DNA of 64,000 nucleotides from the NCBI GenBank assembly GCA_017619675.1, contig JAFZRX010000009.1, positions 281,033-345,032 on the forward strand. Direction: 5' to 3'. Both the position numbers and the translations under genes were made by a program. The notes beneath the pieces are model-generated. The model saw only the letters and a list, made by a program, of their open reading frames with translations, was not told the origin of the DNA and did not search any database. How positions within the stretch are numbered: position 1 is the first letter of the stretch; each line of letters opens with the position of its first letter. Source of the DNA: Bacteroidales bacterium. Lineage in GTDB: Bacteria; Bacteroidota; Bacteroidia; Bacteroidales; UBA932. Positions 1 through 7,538 of the stretch are shown here, piece after piece.

Positions 1-583
1 GGAGGGTGTTGACCAGCGTCAGTCCGTCCGCCCCGGCTTCCTCGCAGGCCTTTGCTATGGCCACGATGTCCGTGACGTTGGGGCTCAGTTTTATGAACAC
101 GGGCTTATGGCACAGGGCCTTGACCGCCGCGGTAACTTCCGCGGCCGCACAGGCCGAAGTGCCGAACGCCATCCCGCCGCCGTGTACGTTGGGGCAGGAG
201 ACGTTGACTTCCAGTATGTCAACCCCTTCGCATTTGTCCGCTATGGAGCAACTCTTCACGTATTCTTCCAGGGAGAATCCGCTTATGTTGGCTATCACCG
301 CTCCTCCGAATATCTTGCGCAACTGGGGAATCTTCTCTTCCACCAGGGCGTAAACACCCGGGTTCTGGAGGCCCACAGAATTGAGCATCCCGTCCGGGGT
401 CTCCGCTATGCGGGGGCACTCGTTACCGAAGCGCGGTTCCAGGGTGGAACCCTTCAGCGATATGCCTCCCAGCACGTTCAGGTCGTATTCCCCGGCCATC
501 TCTAAGCCGAAGCCGAAGGTGCCGCTGGCCGGAATCACCGGATTCTTGAGCGTTACTCCGCAAAGGTTTACTTCAGTTACCAT
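1..583 (-). CDS. pyrD: Dihydroorotate dehydrogenase catalytic subunit, partial (3' end outside window)
   Basis: Oxidises dihydroorotate to orotate in pyrimidine synthesis; the class 1B enzyme works as a complex with PyrK. The visible N-terminal ~194 residues contain the family pattern: VTLKNPVIPASGTFG near the start, the glycine-rich GGISLKG segment, and VNVSCPN followed by KPVFIKLSPNV, the substrate/FMN region. The ATG at 581-583 overlaps the pyrK stop by 7 bases (ATGGTAA) and is preceded by a purine-rich AAGGAGGA. The overlap with pyrK fits a 1B (PyrD-PyrK) heterotetramer. The C-terminal part, with the remaining FMN site, lies beyond the left edge. Confidence 0.95.
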   Translation of the reverse strand, partial: MVTEVNLCGVTLKNPVIPASGTFGFGLEMAGEYDLNVLGGISLKGSTLEPRFGNECPRIAETPDGMLNSVGLQNPGVYALVEEKIPQLRKIFGGAVIANISGFSLEEYVKSCSIADKCEGVDILEVNVSCPNVHGGGMAFGTSACAAAEVTAAVKALCHKPVFIKLSPNVTDIVAIAKACEEAGADGLTLVNTL

Positions 584-1314
584 ATTATGTCCTCCTTCTT
601 GAAAACGGGGCCGTCGGCGCATACTCGCCTGGGCCCGGATGCGGTATGGCAGGTGCAGCCGTAGCAGATGCCGCAGCCGCAGCCCATGCGCTCCTCAAGG
701 CTGGCCTCGCCAGGGCCTTCCAGGCTGGCGCAGACAGCCTTCATCATCGGCGCGGGGCCGCAGGTGTAGAAGTAGTCGAACTCCGGCTGAACGGCCTTTA
801 TGGCATCGGTCACAAAGCCCTTTATTCCCAGCGAGCCGTCCAGCGTGGCCAGGTGGACATCGGCGCCCATGGCCTTGAAATCGTCCACCAGGACGGCGTC
901 GGCGTCGGTGTTGAACCCCATCACCACGCAGACCTTCTTTCCTTGTGCGATGAGTTCCTTTGCCAGGCTGAAGACGGGGGAGGCGCCAAGGCCTCCGCAG
1001 GCTATGAGCGCGCTCTGGCGGCAGGCACCGGCGTCAAAGCCGTTGCCCAGCCCGCAGAGCAGCTCCAGGACCTGCCCCGGCTGCATGGCGCTCATCACTT
1101 CCGTGCCCTGTCCCACCACCTTGTAGATGACGGCCAGGCTTTCCGGGTCCCATTCCTGCGCGGCCAGAGGCCTCCGCAGGAAGAACCCGTCAATTGCCAC
1201 GTCCACGAACTGCCCGGCGCGCTTGAGCGCACCCGTAGGCCCCTGCAGGCGCATCCTGTAGGTCTTGTCCGCGATCAGTTCGTTGGACAGTATTGTATAG
1301 AGGGCTTTTTCCAT
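577..1314 (-). CDS. pyrK: Dihydroorotate dehydrogenase electron-transfer subunit
   Basis: Iron-sulfur flavoprotein that passes electrons from PyrD to NAD+. The ~245-residue protein has the ferredoxin-reductase fold order: FAD-binding RRPL (about residue 48), a nucleotide-binding CGGLGASPV segment (about 107), and a C-terminal [2Fe-2S] region with clustered cysteines (ERMGCGCGICYGCTC, then a further Cys in RRVCADGPVF). A TTG just upstream could add one residue, but the ATG at 1312-1314 overlaps the carB stop (TGATG), the usual coupled arrangement in this operon, so I chose it. Confidence 0.94.
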   Translation of the reverse strand: MEKALYTILSNELIADKTYRMRLQGPTGALKRAGQFVDVAIDGFFLRRPLAAQEWDPESLAVIYKVVGQGTEVMSAMQPGQVLELLCGLGNGFDAGACRQSALIACGGLGASPVFSLAKELIAQGKKVCVVMGFNTDADAVLVDDFKAMGADVHLATLDGSLGIKGFVTDAIKAVQPEFDYFYTCGPAPMMKAVCASLEGPGEASLEERMGCGCGICYGCTCHTASGPRRVCADGPVFKKEDIIW

Positions 1315-4300
1315 CAATGGTTGTATTCTTCGTCAATCGTAGATATACCGAGCGTGATCTCTTCCAGGACGTCAAGCAGCACGCGGACAGTCTCCAGCGA
1401 AGTGAATATTGTAACGTTGTTCTCAACCGCGGCACGGCGGATATCGTATCCGTCAAGCCTTGAACTGTGCTGGTTGATGTCTATGGTGTTGATCACATAG
1501 CTTACGTGGCCCTGGCGGAGGCTGCTTATGATGTCCTTGCTGCCCTCGCTCAGCTTATCGAGGCTGCGGGTCTTTATGCCGTTCTTCTTGAGGAACTCGG
1601 CGGTTCCCTTTGTAGCCTCGATATTGAATCCCAGGTTGTAGAAGCGGCGGATGAGCGGCAGCGCCTCCTCCTTGTCCTGGTCCGCTATGGTGGCGAATAT
1701 GGTTCCGTAGTTCACTACGCTCACGCCGGATGCCTGCAAGGACTTGTAAAGCGCGCGGTTCAGCGAATCGTCATATCCGATGGCCTCACCGGTGGACTTC
1801 ATCTCAGGGGAGAGGTAGGTGTCTATTCCCTTTATCTTTCCGAAGGAGAACGCCGGGCTCTTCACGTAGTGCCTGTGGCGCTCGGGATAGTAAACCTGGC
1901 TTATGCCCTGCTCCTTGAGGGAGTGTCCCAGCATGATCAGGGTGGCTATCTTGGCCATCGGTACACCTGTTGACTTGGACAGGAACGGTACTGTACGGGA
2001 TGAACGGGGGTTGACCTCGATCACGTATACGTCGTTCTTTGAATCCACTATGAACTGGATGTTGAACAGTCCCACGATGCCAATTTCCAGGCCCAGTTTC
2101 ACGGTGTAGTCCACTATCTTGTCCTTCACGTCCTGGCTCAGGGAGAAGGAAGGATATACGCTTATGGAATCTCCGGAATGGATACCCGTGCGCTCCACAT
2201 GCTCCATGATTCCGGGGATGAACACGTCCTTGCCGTCGCAGATAGCGTCAACTTCGCACTCCTTGCCCTGGATGTACTTGTCCACCAGGACAGGGGAGTT
2301 CTCGTTGATCTCCACCGCGTTGTGCAGGTAGTGGCGGAGGGCTTCCTCGTTGCCCACTATCATCATGGCGCGGCCTCCGAGCACGAAGGACGGGCGCACC
2401 AGCACCGGATAGCCTATCTCGGCCGCGGCCTTGACGCCTTCCTCCACGTCAGTCACGGCCTTGGCCTTGGGCTGAGGAATTCCGGTCTTGCGCATGATGG
2501 CCTCGAACAGCTTGCGGTCCTCAGCGTTGTCAATGGCCTCGATCTGGGTGCCGATGATCGGTACGTCGAACTCGGCCAGCGGGCCGGCCAGGTTGATGGC
2601 GGTCTGTCCTCCAAGGGTCACTATGATGCCCTGAGGATTCTCCATCTTTATGACGTTCATGACGTCCTCTACGGTAAGCGGCTCAAAGTAAAGCTTGTCT
2701 GAGATGGAGTAGTCCGTAGAAACAGTTTCGGGGTTGTTGTTTATGATAATTGCCTCATATCCGGCCTCCCGGATGGCCCAGATGGCGTGTACGGTGGAGT
2801 AGTCGAATTCTACTCCCTGACCGATCCTGATAGGACCTGCGCCCAGCACCAGGATCTTCTTGCGGTCGCTGACCACGGTCTCGTTCTCCTGCTCGTAGGT
2901 GGAGTAGAAGTAAGGTACGTCAGCGTCGTGCTCCGCGGCGCAGCTGTCGATGAACTTGTATACGGGGTTGATGCCCAGGGACCACCTGTACTCGATGGCT
3001 TCCTTTTCCGTCATTCCCCACAGCTGGCCAATGAACTTGTCGCTGAATCCCAGCCTCTTGGCCTGTAACAGCGTCTCCTTGTCCTTGGGATTTGCCTTGA
3101 GGGCTTCCTCCATGCGCACAATGTTGCATATCTTCTCAAGGAAGAGCATGTCAATCTTGGTGCGGTCATATATGTGCCTGATATCCACGCCGTTGCGTAT
3201 CAGCTGGGCTATTGCCAGGTAATGGTCGTCCGGGAACTTTGTGATGTACTGGAGCATGTCCGCGTCGCTCATTGACTCGAACTTGCGCTTCCACAGGTGG
3301 CAACAGCCGATCTCCAGCGAGCGGATGGCCTTGAGGAAGCTCTCCTCGAAGGTACGGCCTATGCTCATGACCTCTCCGGTGGCCTTCATCTGGGTCCCCA
3401 GTTCATTGGAAGCCTCGCTGAATTTGTCGAACGGGAAGCGGGCCACCTTGCTCACTATGTAGTCGATGGAAGGCTCGCAGCAGGCGGGGGCGCCGGCCAC
3501 GGTGATTTCGTCCAGGGTAAGTCCCACCGCTATCTTCGCGGTTACGCGGGCGATGGGGAAGCCGCTGGCCTTGGAAGCCAGGGCGGATGAGCGGGAAACG
3601 CGAGGGTTAACCTCGATTATGTAGTAGTTGAAGGACAGCGGGTCCAGTGCGAACTGGATGTTGCATCCGCCTTCGATCTTCAGGGCGCGGATGAGTTTCA
3701 GGGCGCTGGCGCGGAGGATTTCGTATTCCTTGTCGGCCAGGGTCTGCACGGGGGCAACGACCACGGAATCTCCGGTGTGGATGCCTACGGGGTCAACGTT
3801 CTCCATTGAGCAGATGGTGATGGCGGTGTCGTTCTTGTCGCGCATCACCTCGAACTCGATCTCCTTGTAGCCCTTCACGCTCTTCTCGATGAGCACCTGA
3901 TGGACAGGGGAGAGGGCCAGGGCGTTGCGCATCATGTCGGTCAGTTCAGCGGCGTTGTTGGCGAATCCGCCGCCCGTTCCTCCAAGGGTGAAGGCGGGGC
4001 GCAGCACCACGGGGTAGCCTATCTTGTCGGCGGTAGCCAGGGCCTCTTCTATGCTGTAGCATATCTGGGAGGGGATCACGGGCTCGCCGAGGCTGATGCA
4101 CAGTTCCTTGAACAGTTCGCGGTCCTCCGCCTGCTCGATGCTGTGGAAGGAGGTTCCAAGGATTTCTACGTGGCACTCGTCAAGGACGCCCTTGCGCGCC
4201 AGTTTCACGGCCAGGTTGAGGCCTGTCTGGCCTCCCAGGCCGGGAACTATGGCGTCCGGCCTCTCATATCGGATTATCTTGGCAACATATTCCAGGTCCA

Positions 4301-4505
4301 GGGGCTCCATGTAAACCTTGTCCGCCATCTGGGTGTCCGTCATGATGGTGGCTGGGTTGGAGTTCACCAGCACCACCTCATAGCCTTCTTCCTTGAGGGC
4401 GAGGCAGGCCTGGGTGCCTGCATAGTCGAATTCGGCGGCCTGGCCTATCACGATAGGGCCGGAGCCGATAACCATTATCTTGTTTATGTCAGTTCTCTTG
4501 GGCAT
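1314..4505 (-). CDS. carB: Carbamoyl-phosphate synthase large subunit
   Basis: Makes carbamoyl phosphate from bicarbonate, ammonia and two ATP; it normally receives ammonia through a tunnel from CarA. The 1063-residue length is normal. Two homologous ATP-grasp halves are visible: the first starts with GSGPIVIGQAAEFDYAG (about residue 14) and the second with GAGPIRIGQGVEFDYS (about 557). Each carries its glycine-rich and EVNPR metal/ATP motifs. The C-terminal ~130 residues form an MGS-like regulatory domain. It lies 3 bases after carA and its stop overlaps the pyrK start. Nothing looks degraded here, unlike its partner CarA. Confidence 0.97.
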   Translation of the reverse strand: MPKRTDINKIMVIGSGPIVIGQAAEFDYAGTQACLALKEEGYEVVLVNSNPATIMTDTQMADKVYMEPLDLEYVAKIIRYERPDAIVPGLGGQTGLNLAVKLARKGVLDECHVEILGTSFHSIEQAEDRELFKELCISLGEPVIPSQICYSIEEALATADKIGYPVVLRPAFTLGGTGGGFANNAAELTDMMRNALALSPVHQVLIEKSVKGYKEIEFEVMRDKNDTAITICSMENVDPVGIHTGDSVVVAPVQTLADKEYEILRASALKLIRALKIEGGCNIQFALDPLSFNYYIIEVNPRVSRSSALASKASGFPIARVTAKIAVGLTLDEITVAGAPACCEPSIDYIVSKVARFPFDKFSEASNELGTQMKATGEVMSIGRTFEESFLKAIRSLEIGCCHLWKRKFESMSDADMLQYITKFPDDHYLAIAQLIRNGVDIRHIYDRTKIDMLFLEKICNIVRMEEALKANPKDKETLLQAKRLGFSDKFIGQLWGMTEKEAIEYRWSLGINPVYKFIDSCAAEHDADVPYFYSTYEQENETVVSDRKKILVLGAGPIRIGQGVEFDYSTVHAIWAIREAGYEAIIINNNPETVSTDYSISDKLYFEPLTVEDVMNVIKMENPQGIIVTLGGQTAINLAGPLAEFDVPIIGTQIEAIDNAEDRKLFEAIMRKTGIPQPKAKAVTDVEEGVKAAAEIGYPVLVRPSFVLGGRAMMIVGNEEALRHYLHNAVEINENSPVLVDKYIQGKECEVDAICDGKDVFIPGIMEHVERTGIHSGDSISVYPSFSLSQDVKDKIVDYTVKLGLEIGIVGLFNIQFIVDSKNDVYVIEVNPRSSRTVPFLSKSTGVPMAKIATLIMLGHSLKEQGISQVYYPERHRHYVKSPAFSFGKIKGIDTYLSPEMKSTGEAIGYDDSLNRALYKSLQASGVSVVNYGTIFATIADQDKEEALPLIRRFYNLGFNIEATKGTAEFLKKNGIKTRSLDKLSEGSKDIISSLRQGHVSYVINTIDINQHSSRLDGYDIRRAAVENNVTIFTSLETVRVLLDVLEEITLGISTIDEEYNH

Positions 4506-4508
4506 GTC

Positions 4509-5576
4509 CTATTCCTCCATCATTGCTATGAATTTGTCAAAAAAGTCGCTCTCCTGCGGGCCCGGGGCTCCTTCAGGATAGAACTGTACGCTGTATACCT
4601 TGTCGGCGGGGCACTGGAGGCCCTCTATGGTGCCGTCGGAGGCGTCCTTGTAGACAACCTCAAGCGGGGTGCCGGCCAGGGAGGCCTCGTCAACCGCGTA
4701 GTTGTGGTTGTGCTCGGTTGTGATGATGCGTCCGGTCTCCATGTTGCGGACAGGATGGCCGCCGTGGTGTCCGCAGAGCATCTTGAATGTCTTGGCTCCG
4801 TATGAACGGGCTATGATGAGGTGTCCCAGGCAGATTCCAAAGAGGGGGAGCCTTCCCTTCAGGTCCTTGACAAGCTTGTCAAGGGAAGGGAGGTTGTCAG
4901 GGCTGCCGGGGCCGTTGGATATGATCACTCCGTCAGGGTCGAAGGCCAGGATGTCCTCCACCGTGGAGTTGTAGGGAACCACGGTGACGTTGCATCCGCG
5001 CTGGTTCAGGGCGGACACTATGCTGTGCTTGAGGCCGCAGTCCACTATCACCACGTCATATTTGTGCTGGGGGGTGCGGGAGAACCAGCGCTTGGTGCAG
5101 CTGACCCTGGCCACCTGGTCCGTCTGGACCGGGGCCTGGGCTATGAGCACCAGCGCGTTGCCGGTGGACATGCCTTCGTCCACTATGGCCGCCTTCATGC
5201 TGCCCTCCGTACGTATGATGCGGGTGAGCATGCGGGTGTCGGGGCCGCTCAGGATTGGAATCCCGTGTTCGTCCATCTCCTCAGACAAGGTCTTTGTGTA
5301 GCGGAAGTTGGACGGGGTGTCGCAGTACTCGCGGACTATGAGGCCGCCAAGTGAGAAGATGCGGGACTCAAAGTCGTCGTCGGTGATACCATACTGGCCT
5401 ATCAGGGGATAGGTCATCACTACTAACTGTCCGGCGTATGCCGGGTCGGAAGCTATTTCCTGATACCCCACCATTGAGGTATTGAAAACTATTTCCCCCA
5501 CGACAGGGCTCTGTGACCCGTATCCCAGGCCGTGGAACTCCTGTCCGTTTTCGAGAACAAGCTTCATTTTCTTCAT
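4509..5576 (-). CDS. carA: Carbamoyl-phosphate synthase small subunit with altered glutaminase site
   Basis: Normally hydrolyses glutamine to feed ammonia to CarB. The 355-residue protein has the CarA N-terminal domain and a class I glutamine amidotransferase domain. The nucleophile Cys249 is kept in FGICLGH, and Glu335 is kept. The catalytic His of the Cys-His-Glu triad is Tyr333 (FYPEGAPGP; codon TAT at 4578-4580). Three glutamine-pocket positions also differ from the E. coli enzyme: the Gln after CLGH is Leu253, the Gly of the NHG motif is Asn292, and the Ser of DPSY is Ala46. From established CarA biochemistry, loss of this His removes glutaminase activity but leaves ammonia-dependent synthesis possible; that this applies here is inference. 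A start 9 bases downstream (MKLVLEN) is also possible. Confidence 0.93.
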   Translation of the reverse strand: MKKMKLVLENGQEFHGLGYGSQSPVVGEIVFNTSMVGYQEIASDPAYAGQLVVMTYPLIGQYGITDDDFESRIFSLGGLIVREYCDTPSNFRYTKTLSEEMDEHGIPILSGPDTRMLTRIIRTEGSMKAAIVDEGMSTGNALVLIAQAPVQTDQVARVSCTKRWFSRTPQHKYDVVIVDCGLKHSIVSALNQRGCNVTVVPYNSTVEDILAFDPDGVIISNGPGSPDNLPSLDKLVKDLKGRLPLFGICLGHLIIARSYGAKTFKMLCGHHGGHPVRNMETGRIITTEHNHNYAVDEASLAGTPLEVVYKDASDGTIEGLQCPADKVYSVQFYPEGAPGPQESDFFDKFIAMMEE

Positions 5577-5580
5577 TTTC

Positions 5581-6699
5581 CTATATCTTAAATATTGTCT
5601 TTCCTTTGTAAACGGTCTTCACGCACTTTCCGTAGACTTCCCAGCCGTCGAAGGGGGTGCTGTGCCCCTTGGACTGGAACTTTGAGGAATCTATGACGAA
5701 AGGCTCTCCAACTTCGAAGAAGGCCCTGTCGCGCCCCGCTTCCGGAAGGCGGAAGCGCCTGCGCGGGGCCGTGCTCATCAGGTCCACCAGTTTCTCAAGC
5801 GTGATGACGCCTTTCAGGACCAGATGCGTGTACAGGACTGGGAATGCTGTCTCCAGTCCCGTGATGCCCATTGCGCTGTCCTTAAGGCCCTTGGACTTTT
5901 CCTCCGCGCTGTGCGGGGCGTGGTCCGTGGCAATCATGTCTATGGTTCCGTCCTGGATGCCTTCCAGCAGGGCGTCCCTGTCCGCCGCGCTGCGGAGGGG
6001 AGGGTTCATCTTGAAACGGCCGTCTTCCTGGAGGTTGTCGTCGCACAGGACAAGGTAGTGGGGCGCCGTCTCGCAGGAGACGTTCACGCCGCGGGCCTTG
6101 GCCTGGCGTATCAATTGGACGCTTTCCTTTGTGGAGATGTGGCAGACGTGGTATGCGCAGCCGCATTCCTCCGCCAGCGCCAGGTCCCTTTCTATCTGCG
6201 CCCACTCGCTGGCGGCGCAGATGCCCTTGTGACCATGGGTGTGGGCGTACTCGCCGTCGTTTATGTAGCCGCCGCGAAGCAGGGAGTTGTCCTCGCAGTG
6301 GGCGGCCAGGATGCAGTCCTGCGCGGCAATGAGTTTCATCGCCCTGCGCATGACGGCGTCATCCTGCACGCCGCTGCCATCGTCGGAGAACGCCACGCAG
6401 CCGCCCTTGAGGGCCGCCACGTCCACTACCTCCAGGCCCTTGCGGCCCAGGGTGATGGTGGCGTACGGCCTCACGTCAATGAAGGCGTCCCTGCGGATTA
6501 TGTCCAGTTCCTCCTGCAGGTGCTCCGGGGTGTCCGGAGCGGGGGAGAGGTTGGGCATGGGGCACACCGCGGTATAGCCGCCGGCCGCGGCTGCACGGCA
6601 TCCCGTCAGGATGGTCTCCTTATATGGGGAACCCGGCTCGCGGAAGTGCACGTGCACGTCGGCAAGGGCGGGGATCTCTATTACATTCTTCAACGACAT
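5581..6699 (-). CDS. pyrC: Dihydroorotase (class I)
   Basis: Cyclises carbamoyl-aspartate to dihydroorotate. The 372-residue amidohydrolase shows the metal-ligand motifs in order: DVHVHFREPG (about residue 14), FSDDGSG (about 105), AAHCED (about 134), VCHIST (about 165), TAPHY (about 187) and ATDHAPH (about 248). It is the first gene of a pyrC-carA-carB-pyrK-pyrD unit, 4 bases ahead of carA. Its ATG (6697-6699) lies three bases after the U-tract of a terminator-like hairpin, so the leader probably controls how much transcription reaches the gene. pyrB and pyrI are not visible in the window. Confidence 0.96.
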   Translation of the reverse strand: MSLKNVIEIPALADVHVHFREPGSPYKETILTGCRAAAAGGYTAVCPMPNLSPAPDTPEHLQEELDIIRRDAFIDVRPYATITLGRKGLEVVDVAALKGGCVAFSDDGSGVQDDAVMRRAMKLIAAQDCILAAHCEDNSLLRGGYINDGEYAHTHGHKGICAASEWAQIERDLALAEECGCAYHVCHISTKESVQLIRQAKARGVNVSCETAPHYLVLCDDNLQEDGRFKMNPPLRSAADRDALLEGIQDGTIDMIATDHAPHSAEEKSKGLKDSAMGITGLETAFPVLYTHLVLKGVITLEKLVDLMSTAPRRRFRLPEAGRDRAFFEVGEPFVIDSSKFQSKGHSTPFDGWEVYGKCVKTVYKGKTIFKI

Positions 6700-6702
6700 G
6701 GC

Positions 6703-6731
6703 AAAAAAAATGACGACTTATAAAAGCCGTC
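6703..6731 (-). terminator. Intrinsic terminator (attenuator) in the pyr operon leader
   Basis: On the minus strand an 8-bp stem with a 4-base loop (GACGGCTT-TTAT-AAGTCGTC, one G-U pair; plus-strand 6712-6731) is followed by one A and eight U (6710-6703), directly before the pyrC start. This is a canonical intrinsic terminator placed inside the leader of the operon it would stop. The 5' arm begins at the stop codon of the leader reading frame (6730-6819), so a ribosome finishing that frame would cover the arm. Confidence 0.82.
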
Positions 6732-6819
6732 AACCAATTAAAAAATAAAAATGGAACAGTTTGTCTGACACATTGCCGGAAGCCGGAGAATACTGTATGC
6801 AGCTGTAAATCTGATCCAT
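6730..6819 (-). CDS. Putative pyr leader peptide (29 codons)
   Basis: The ATG at 6817-6819 opens a 29-codon frame ending with TGA at 6730-6732. The end of the frame is very U-rich in RNA: codons 22-28 read UUC CAU UUU UAU UUU UUA AUU, giving FHFYFLI. The stop touches the first bases of the terminator stem. The 5' UTR between the promoter and this ATG is A-rich (ACAAACAAAAAAACA), which is typical of good initiation regions in Bacteroidota. The layout of short leader frame, U-rich pause tract and terminator is that of the E. coli pyrBI attenuator. No product has been shown; the call rests on architecture alone. Confidence 0.68.
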   Translation of the reverse strand: MDQIYSCIQYSPASGNVSDKLFHFYFLIG

Positions 6820-6835
6820 TGTTTTTTTGTTTGTG

Positions 6836-6866
6836 CAAAGTTAGATATTTTCCAAAATACCGCAAG
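6836..6866 (-). promoter_or_regulatory. Promoter of the pyr operon
   Basis: The minus strand carries TAACTTTG at 6843-6836, a perfect match to the Bacteroidota -7 box TAnnTTTG, with CTTG at 6866-6863 (19-base spacer) as an approximate -33 TTTG. Expected transcription start is near 6830, about 10 bases ahead of the leader-peptide ATG. Confidence 0.75.
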
Positions 6867-7070: not shown

Positions 7071-7538
7071 ATGAAAGTTGGAGTTATAATGGGGTCGACA
7101 AGTGATCTGGAGGTCATGTCGGCTGCCTTCGACGTGCTTGACCGCTTCAGGGTCCCGTACGAGAAGAAAGTGATCAGCGCCCACCGCGCACCCGCCCTTC
7201 TGGCGGAGTACGCCACCACCGCCCGCGACCGCGGCCTTGACATTATAATTGCCGGAGCCGGCGGAGCCGCGCATCTTCCGGGAGTCACCGCCTCTATGAC
7301 CACCATCCCCGTGATAGGCGTACCTATCAGCGGAAAGGCCTTCGGCGGAATGGACGCGCTCCTCTCAATGGTCCAGATGCCTTCCGGAATCCCGGTAGCA
7401 ACGGTTTCCGTGAACGGGGCTAAGAACGCCGCCCTCCTGGCCATATCAATACTCTCACTTTCCAATCCGGGCCTTGCCGCGTCGCTTAAATCCTTCCGCG
7501 ACCAGCAGGCGGAGATTATCAAGCGCACAGAAATCTAA
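7071..7538 (+). CDS. purE: N5-carboxyaminoimidazole ribonucleotide mutase
   Basis: Moves the carboxyl group of N5-CAIR to give CAIR in purine synthesis. The 155-residue length and motifs fit class I PurE: GSTSD near the N-terminus, ISAHRAP (about residue 41) and AGAGGAAHLPGV (about 61), which form the nucleotide pocket and catalytic His region. It is the first gene of the purE-L-C-F-M-N-H-D cluster. Class I PurE needs PurK, which is not in the window. Confidence 0.95.
   Translation: MKVGVIMGSTSDLEVMSAAFDVLDRFRVPYEKKVISAHRAPALLAEYATTARDRGLDIIIAGAGGAAHLPGVTASMTTIPVIGVPISGKAFGGMDALLSMVQMPSGIPVATVSVNGAKNAALLAISILSLSNPGLAASLKSFRDQQAEIIKRTEI

Follow-up and report, generated by a model that had tools for sequence, protein, structure and literature searches.

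What controls the pyrimidine operon at the edge of this stretch of DNA (64,000 nt; the whole stretch analysed is called the window here) is a question raised by the short region between a promoter box and pyrC, the first gene of the operon. A first-pass annotation had proposed that this region is a leader-peptide attenuator of the kind known from E. coli pyrBI. The operon comprises eight genes, pyrC-carA-carB-pyrK-pyrD-pyrF-pyrE-pyrB, and represents the whole UMP pathway; the annotation had followed it from pyrC to pyrD, and while these genes were found in that order, the operon continues with pyrF-pyrE-pyrB. The reading of pyrD extends over the edge of the window, and the gene was named from sequence and place, whereas the other seven genes are backed by NCBIfam scans. 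The features are listed in Table 1.

Table 1. Coordinates of the pyr leader, the pyr operon and the hisG leader
Feature	Position	Strand	Basis or remark
TAnnTTTG promoter box, TAACTTTG	6843-6836	(-)	Seen in sequence
Leader frame, 29 codons + TGA, peptide MDQIYSCIQYSPASGNVSDKLFHFYFLIG, ATG at 6819	6819-6730	(-)	
Start-codon arm of predicted leader helix, AUGGAUCAG	6819-6811	(-)	Predicted pairing
Partner arm, CUGUUCCAU, ends at U-run	6759-6751	(-)	Predicted pairing
U-rich run, UUUUUAUUUUUU, candidate tract for UTP-sensitive pausing	6751-6740	(-)	Pausing inferred
Leader stop codon TGA	6732-6730	(-)	First three bases of hairpin
Predicted terminator hairpin, 9 pairs (one G-U, loop UUAU)	6732-6711	(-)	Stop codon at base
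U8 tract of predicted terminator	6710-6703	(-)	
pyrC, dihydroorotase, Clostridia-like type	5581-6699	(-)	NCBIfam scan
carA	4509-5576	(-)	NCBIfam scan
carB	1314-4505	(-)	NCBIfam scan
pyrK	577-1317	(-)	NCBIfam scan
pyrD, extends beyond window edge	1-622	(-)	Named from sequence and place
pyrF, pyrE, pyrB, beyond pyrD	L288 19681-17263	Same strand	NCBIfam scans
hisG leader attenuator, MTNNSIITLHHHHHRI + stop, predicted terminator hairpin 26828-26808	26932-26808	(-)	hisG ATG 26789

The order that had been claimed for the leader (box, leader frame, U-rich codons, stop codon and hairpin, U8, pyrC) was recovered with every part in place, including the 29-codon frame with its U-rich end. Three details require correction. 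The stem, previously given as 8 bp, was counted at nine pairs; the stop codon, described as touching the 5' arm of the hairpin, itself provides the first three bases of the hairpin; and the U8 tract, described as lying directly before pyrC, is present but separated from the pyrC ATG by GCC. As the TAnnTTTG box is reported to occupy positions -12 to -5 (PMC9723704), its location places the expected transcription start near 6831, ~12 nt 5' of the leader ATG.

The hairpin with its U8 tract was predicted to fold at -11.5 kcal/mol (z = -8.0), with 0/200 shuffles as good, while the fold of the whole leader gave a z of -3.5. Over 344 kb of this contig (688,000 strand-bases), a strict scanner, the thresholds of which were fixed after first looks at the data, identified nine strong terminators, two of which are the pyr hairpin and the hisG attenuator. 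A looser consensus scan returned 12 terminator-like sites in 20 kb compared with 16.2 in shuffles, indicating that hairpins as such are not rare; among these 12 sites, only the pyr hairpin has a stem followed by 8 T, and only it and one other site have at least seven pairs. As in pyrBI, what appears to be an intrinsic terminator is located immediately 5' of the first pyr gene.

Of 400 genomes examined from the genus, 130 were found to encode PyrC of the window type (E <= 1e-100). The loci that were read included 80 of 89 added by this search, leaving out G439, G558, G623, G632, G403, G328, G595, G347 and G544. A tblastn search (1e-60) matched 208 loci, of which 65 with non-Bacteroidota titles were removed, and the remaining 143 included 132 distinct ones. 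A hairpin followed by a U-run and ending less than 50 nt before the pyrC start was present in 70 of the 132 distinct Bacteroidota upstream regions and absent in 62, with 17 of the latter carrying, according to our rule, a hairpin inside pyrC. Among the 70 hairpin-bearing regions, 65 were shown to possess the TAnnTTTG box and 63 both the box and an ATG. The frames of 61 of these 63 reach the hairpin, either running into it or ending no more than 15 nt before it; in 52, the frame ends at most 15 nt from the hairpin start. Median distances in these leaders were 23 nt from box to ATG, 84 nt from ATG to hairpin and 14 nt from hairpin to gene. Some of the seven regions that have no box or no ATG by our rule (L095, L182, L190, L210, L217, L224 and L273) may represent chance hairpins.

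Such hairpins were located directly upstream of pyrC in 70/131 cases, of pyrK in 4/29 and of pyrD in 2/60, and none was found directly upstream of carA (0/66), carB (0/65), pyrF (0/43), pyrE (0/33) or pyrB (0/4). The same leader and hairpin design precedes pyrK in L092, L266, L267 and L269, and pyrD in L231 and L236; among these loci, only in L236 is pyrC also preceded by a leader with hairpin. Across the order, upstream regions of pyrB were obtained for 92 of 148 genomes and classified as leader-like (12), uncertain (one), ends of upstream genes (30) or nothing (49), and most of the leader-like regions displayed no clear U-run by eye. In L155, L158, L161, L296, L305, L319, L321, L325 and L347, pyrB is preceded by a leader-like frame that stops close to or at a predicted terminator.

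The annotation had named conservation of frame and hairpin among relatives as a check on its proposal, and the pyrC upstream regions bear this out. In the PyrC tree, the window groups with four other loci, and frame, U-run and hairpin are retained in 5/5; a larger PyrC clade (40 members, support 93) retains the hairpin in 37/40, with leader letters that are unrelated. Across the tree, the element required 21 changes compared with 45.9 in shuffles, and is therefore clustered, yet often gained or lost. Related loci are not independent, and the small probabilities that were computed should therefore not be read literally; covariation in the stem was unusable, as the loci had been chosen for having a hairpin.

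The frame was assessed from the first ATG after the box in 34 long leaders, each representing a cluster. In 33 of the 34, no stop codon occurs until at most 15 nt before the hairpin or further on (shuffles, 34%), and in 27 the stop codon falls within 15 nt of the hairpin start (23% in shuffles). The pyr operon thus appears to be preceded, as is pyrBI, by a short frame between promoter and predicted terminator, and this frame extends far enough for a ribosome to be able to block the terminator. Single changes in the leader peptides were synonymous in 44 and nonsynonymous in 87 cases, with 22.6% synonymous expected by chance. The peptides differ from clade to clade and are weakly constrained, as would be expected if the position of the ribosome, and not the peptide, matters. 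A conserved CCGATG-like motif near -40 was also considered and then dropped, as it is absent by pattern from 13 of 31 leaders, including that of the window.

As far as the sequence can tell, these observations support both the parts and the mechanism proposed in the first-pass annotation, with a leader that would resemble pyrBI in function. We consider it likely that the pyr leader is a translation-coupled transcription attenuator which, like that of E. coli pyrBI, would sense UTP and set the whole UMP pathway. In the mechanism that we infer, from leader translation and ribosome loading to UTP-dependent pausing, termination and a start-codon gate, the transcript would begin ~12 nt 5' of the leader ATG. 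With ample UTP, the polymerase would pass the U-run before the first ribosome could catch up, the hairpin with its U8 tract would form, and transcription would end before pyrC. With scarce UTP, the polymerase would be slowed in the U-run, allowing the ribosome to close the gap; as translation of the leader would carry it up to or into the hairpin, it would then cover the 5' arm of the hairpin and the polymerase would continue into pyrC. Counting against this reading are the 62 of 132 upstream regions in which the element is absent and its frequent changes on the tree.

The U-run itself is positioned close to the hairpin. Within the 35 nt adjoining the hairpin, at least 8 T in 12 nt were observed for 45/69 leaders, compared with 1/69 for the 35 nt further upstream, so that a U-rich tract of the pyrBI type is present between start codon and predicted terminator. 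This proximal-distal comparison was used in place of one with other terminators (43 strict pyr leaders had a U fraction of 0.48, 13 control terminators one of 0.33), which is weak because the controls are few and at least five of them are pyr leaders themselves (L231 and L236 before pyrD; L266, L267 and L269 before pyrK). No real U-run was found in a group with short leaders (L113, L114, L115 and L117).

A further variant was identified within the clade of 28 loci that contains the window. Thirteen of its members have no separate leader and instead carry a strong hairpin inside the start of the pyrC coding region (L007, L011, L083, L084, L085, L173, L175, L176, L183, L216, L250, L255 and L264). 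These hairpins consist of nine to 12 pairs (12 being the scanner maximum) and are directly followed by no more than five U, the short U-run making for a weaker predicted terminator. Their stability was reached by synonymous recoding in only 0-6 of 300 trials, and the background of such hairpins within the operon was four in 461,340 nt. The distance from box to ATG is exactly 15 nt in 13/13, which, given a box occupying -12 to -5, would leave ~3 nt before the ATG and a nearly leaderless mRNA. The residues SYG occur near the PyrC N-terminus in all 13. Outside the main clade, in-gene hairpins were called in L206, L212, L213 and L237.

A second element would probably sharpen the choice between termination and read-through, as the leader AUG is predicted to pair with a stretch located where the U-run begins. 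In minimum free energy folds, 23 of 31 leaders (36% of shuffles) have at least two AUG bases paired within the final 50 nt preceding the terminator, the partner bases lying 10 to 32 nt before the predicted terminator in 20 of these 23. The whole AUG is paired in this manner at a probability of at least 0.5 in 20/31 leaders, with a value of 0.98 for the window, and the helix continues past the AUG, with letters that differ among clades. Leader RNAs were predicted to fold better than shuffles (mean z -1.7), and a separate duplex test gave values below 0.05 in only 8/31 leaders; taken together, the modelled AUG pairing is moderately above chance. The fold predicted for E. coli pyrL likewise pairs the AUG with bases just before the U-run (probability 0.97-1.0; 27-29% in shuffles), and the purine-rich stretch before the AUG with pyrimidines after the U-run.

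These folds raise the possibility, which we put forward tentatively, of an attenuator that closes itself. A leader not loaded in time would become inaccessible through its own pairing, whereas a polymerase held in the U-run would keep the partner segment of the AUG inside the enzyme and so prolong the time for loading. The AUG would thus be buried unless the polymerase is held at the U-run, and UTP would control both the loading of the ribosome and its pursuit of the polymerase. Such a gate may perhaps be general to pyr leaders, with the in-gene variant of a sister lineage representing a leader fused with pyrC on a nearly leaderless mRNA. To our knowledge, no such start-codon gate has been described for pyrBI, and none was found there in a literature search at the level of titles.

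The same pairing could also point to a translation-coupled attenuator that responds to general ribosome supply or growth, in which the U-run would merely form part of the AUG helix. The region of the U-run does pair with the AUG in the predicted folds, and the short-leader and in-gene variants retain the hairpin with no U-run before it; however, the U-run is longer than the pairing requires and is placed where pausing would help, and we regard this explanation as unlikely.

Attenuation by specific codons, with a ribosome stalling at leader Phe (or Leu or Ile) codons as in pheA or his leaders, would account for the presence of Phe within the last ten codons of 30/31 leaders. Phe codons are, however, as common in the other two frames (70, 71 and 68 for the three frames over the last 36 nt), indicating that the U-run is a nucleotide signal and not an amino-acid signal, and Phe has no metabolic link to UMP. 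The his leaders of the same genus allow a direct comparison. Among 61 genomes examined, 29 were shown to contain hisG, and 23 of these 29 loci have a leader with three to six His codons in a row, followed in 21 of the 23 by a predicted terminator 30-56 nt after the stop codon. These poly-His leaders with terminators indicate that ribosome-mediated attenuation may well be in use in the genus. The his, trp and phe leaders share with the pyr leader of the window a short frame and a terminator, but the hisG leaders possess runs of cognate codons and a gap between stop and hairpin, whereas the pyr stop codons are located at the hairpin. This leaves no room for an antiterminator, so that the ribosome itself would have to block the stem. 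Attenuation through Phe codons was accordingly rejected for want of an in-frame excess, and is in our estimation very improbable.

An RNA-binding protein, whether PyrR or a different one, could instead bring about antitermination with an incidental leader frame, which would be in keeping with leader RNAs that are more stable than shuffles. The PyrR attenuators of Bacillota likewise act by transcription attenuation of pyr operons, but require PyrR. No PyrR above the cut-off was found in 39 genomes of the family, including the genome of the window (94.5% complete), while 6/14 control genomes passed; 24 of the 39 contained only weak phosphoribosyltransferase-like matches, the best of which scored 32 bits against a cut-off of 138. 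PyrR attenuation was rejected on this basis. Rfam searches at the gathering score returned no match to the leader (the one match in the window being a tRNA) and none at nine related loci, where three matches of high E were at chance level; this negative is weak, as three comparison loci from outside the Bacteroidota were also without a match. Between clades, moreover, it is the frame that is conserved and not the leader letters, and control by such a protein is held to be highly unlikely. Both tested rivals, PyrR and Phe-codon attenuation, thus fare worse than the pyrBI-like reading. Least plausible of all is a fixed, non-regulatory terminator serving to insulate pyrC or to form the 3' end of a small RNA, since the hairpin with U8, although a good predicted terminator, ends 3 nt before pyrC and downstream of the nearest promoter box, and its position relative to the frame is retained.

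Comparison with the E. coli pyrL sequence, which was fetched for this purpose, revealed similar proportions, with the ATG 88 nt before the hairpin in pyrL and 87 nt in the window leader. Both leaders contain a U-rich cluster between ATG and hairpin, in both a pyr structural gene is preceded by a terminator, predicted in the window, with a U8 tract that the frame overlaps, and the predicted pairing of the AUG near the U-run is alike. They differ in that the pyrL frame ends 44 nt beyond the start of the stem, whereas the window frame ends at the stem base, with the U-run nearer to the hairpin than in pyrL. The window leader also belongs to another phylum, has a different promoter type and different letters, and precedes pyrC as the first gene of an eight-gene operon for the complete pathway. 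The E. coli pyrE attenuator, located behind rph, depends on coupled translation up to the terminator and is under UTP control, but the translated frame is a full gene and not a short leader. In pyrBI, a U-run at the start site allows reiterative transcription; no such run was seen at the predicted start of the window leader. Reiterative transcription is named for pyrBI in PMC6245113, and tight coupling across the pyrBI leader is described as necessary to prevent the terminator (PMC5021804).

A literature search returned no report of pyr attenuation or of pyr leader peptides in Bacteroidota, a weak negative given the thin coverage of subscription papers. Short frames in long 5' UTRs have been described for B. 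thetaiotaomicron (PMC7366714) and clues to leader peptides before amino-acid operons for Flavobacterium psychrophilum (PMC9723704), while Bacteroidetes are not named in the consulted part of an attenuator survey (PMC2965389). If the pyrBI-like reading is correct, a textbook enterobacterial mechanism would operate in a phylum that is dominant in the gut and uses another type of promoter, being either conserved from far back or evolved twice, and ribosome and polymerase would be closely coupled in Bacteroidota. The pyr and his leaders together would represent ready reporters for this question of coupling, and the start-codon gate could also be tested in E. coli. For a large uncultured genus of gut and rumen, the leader is also the point at which the complete UMP pathway is likely to be controlled.

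Two observations concern neighbouring genes. Divergent from the pyr leader is a gene at 7071-7538 (+) which we take to be purE-like, with other apparent pur genes behind it, so that UMP and purine genes would have a single intergenic region in common. The window PyrC exhibits 58-66% identity to dihydroorotases in Clostridia records, whereas its matches in many genomes of the same family are only 26-35% identical, a difference that suggests transfer of PyrC between phyla.
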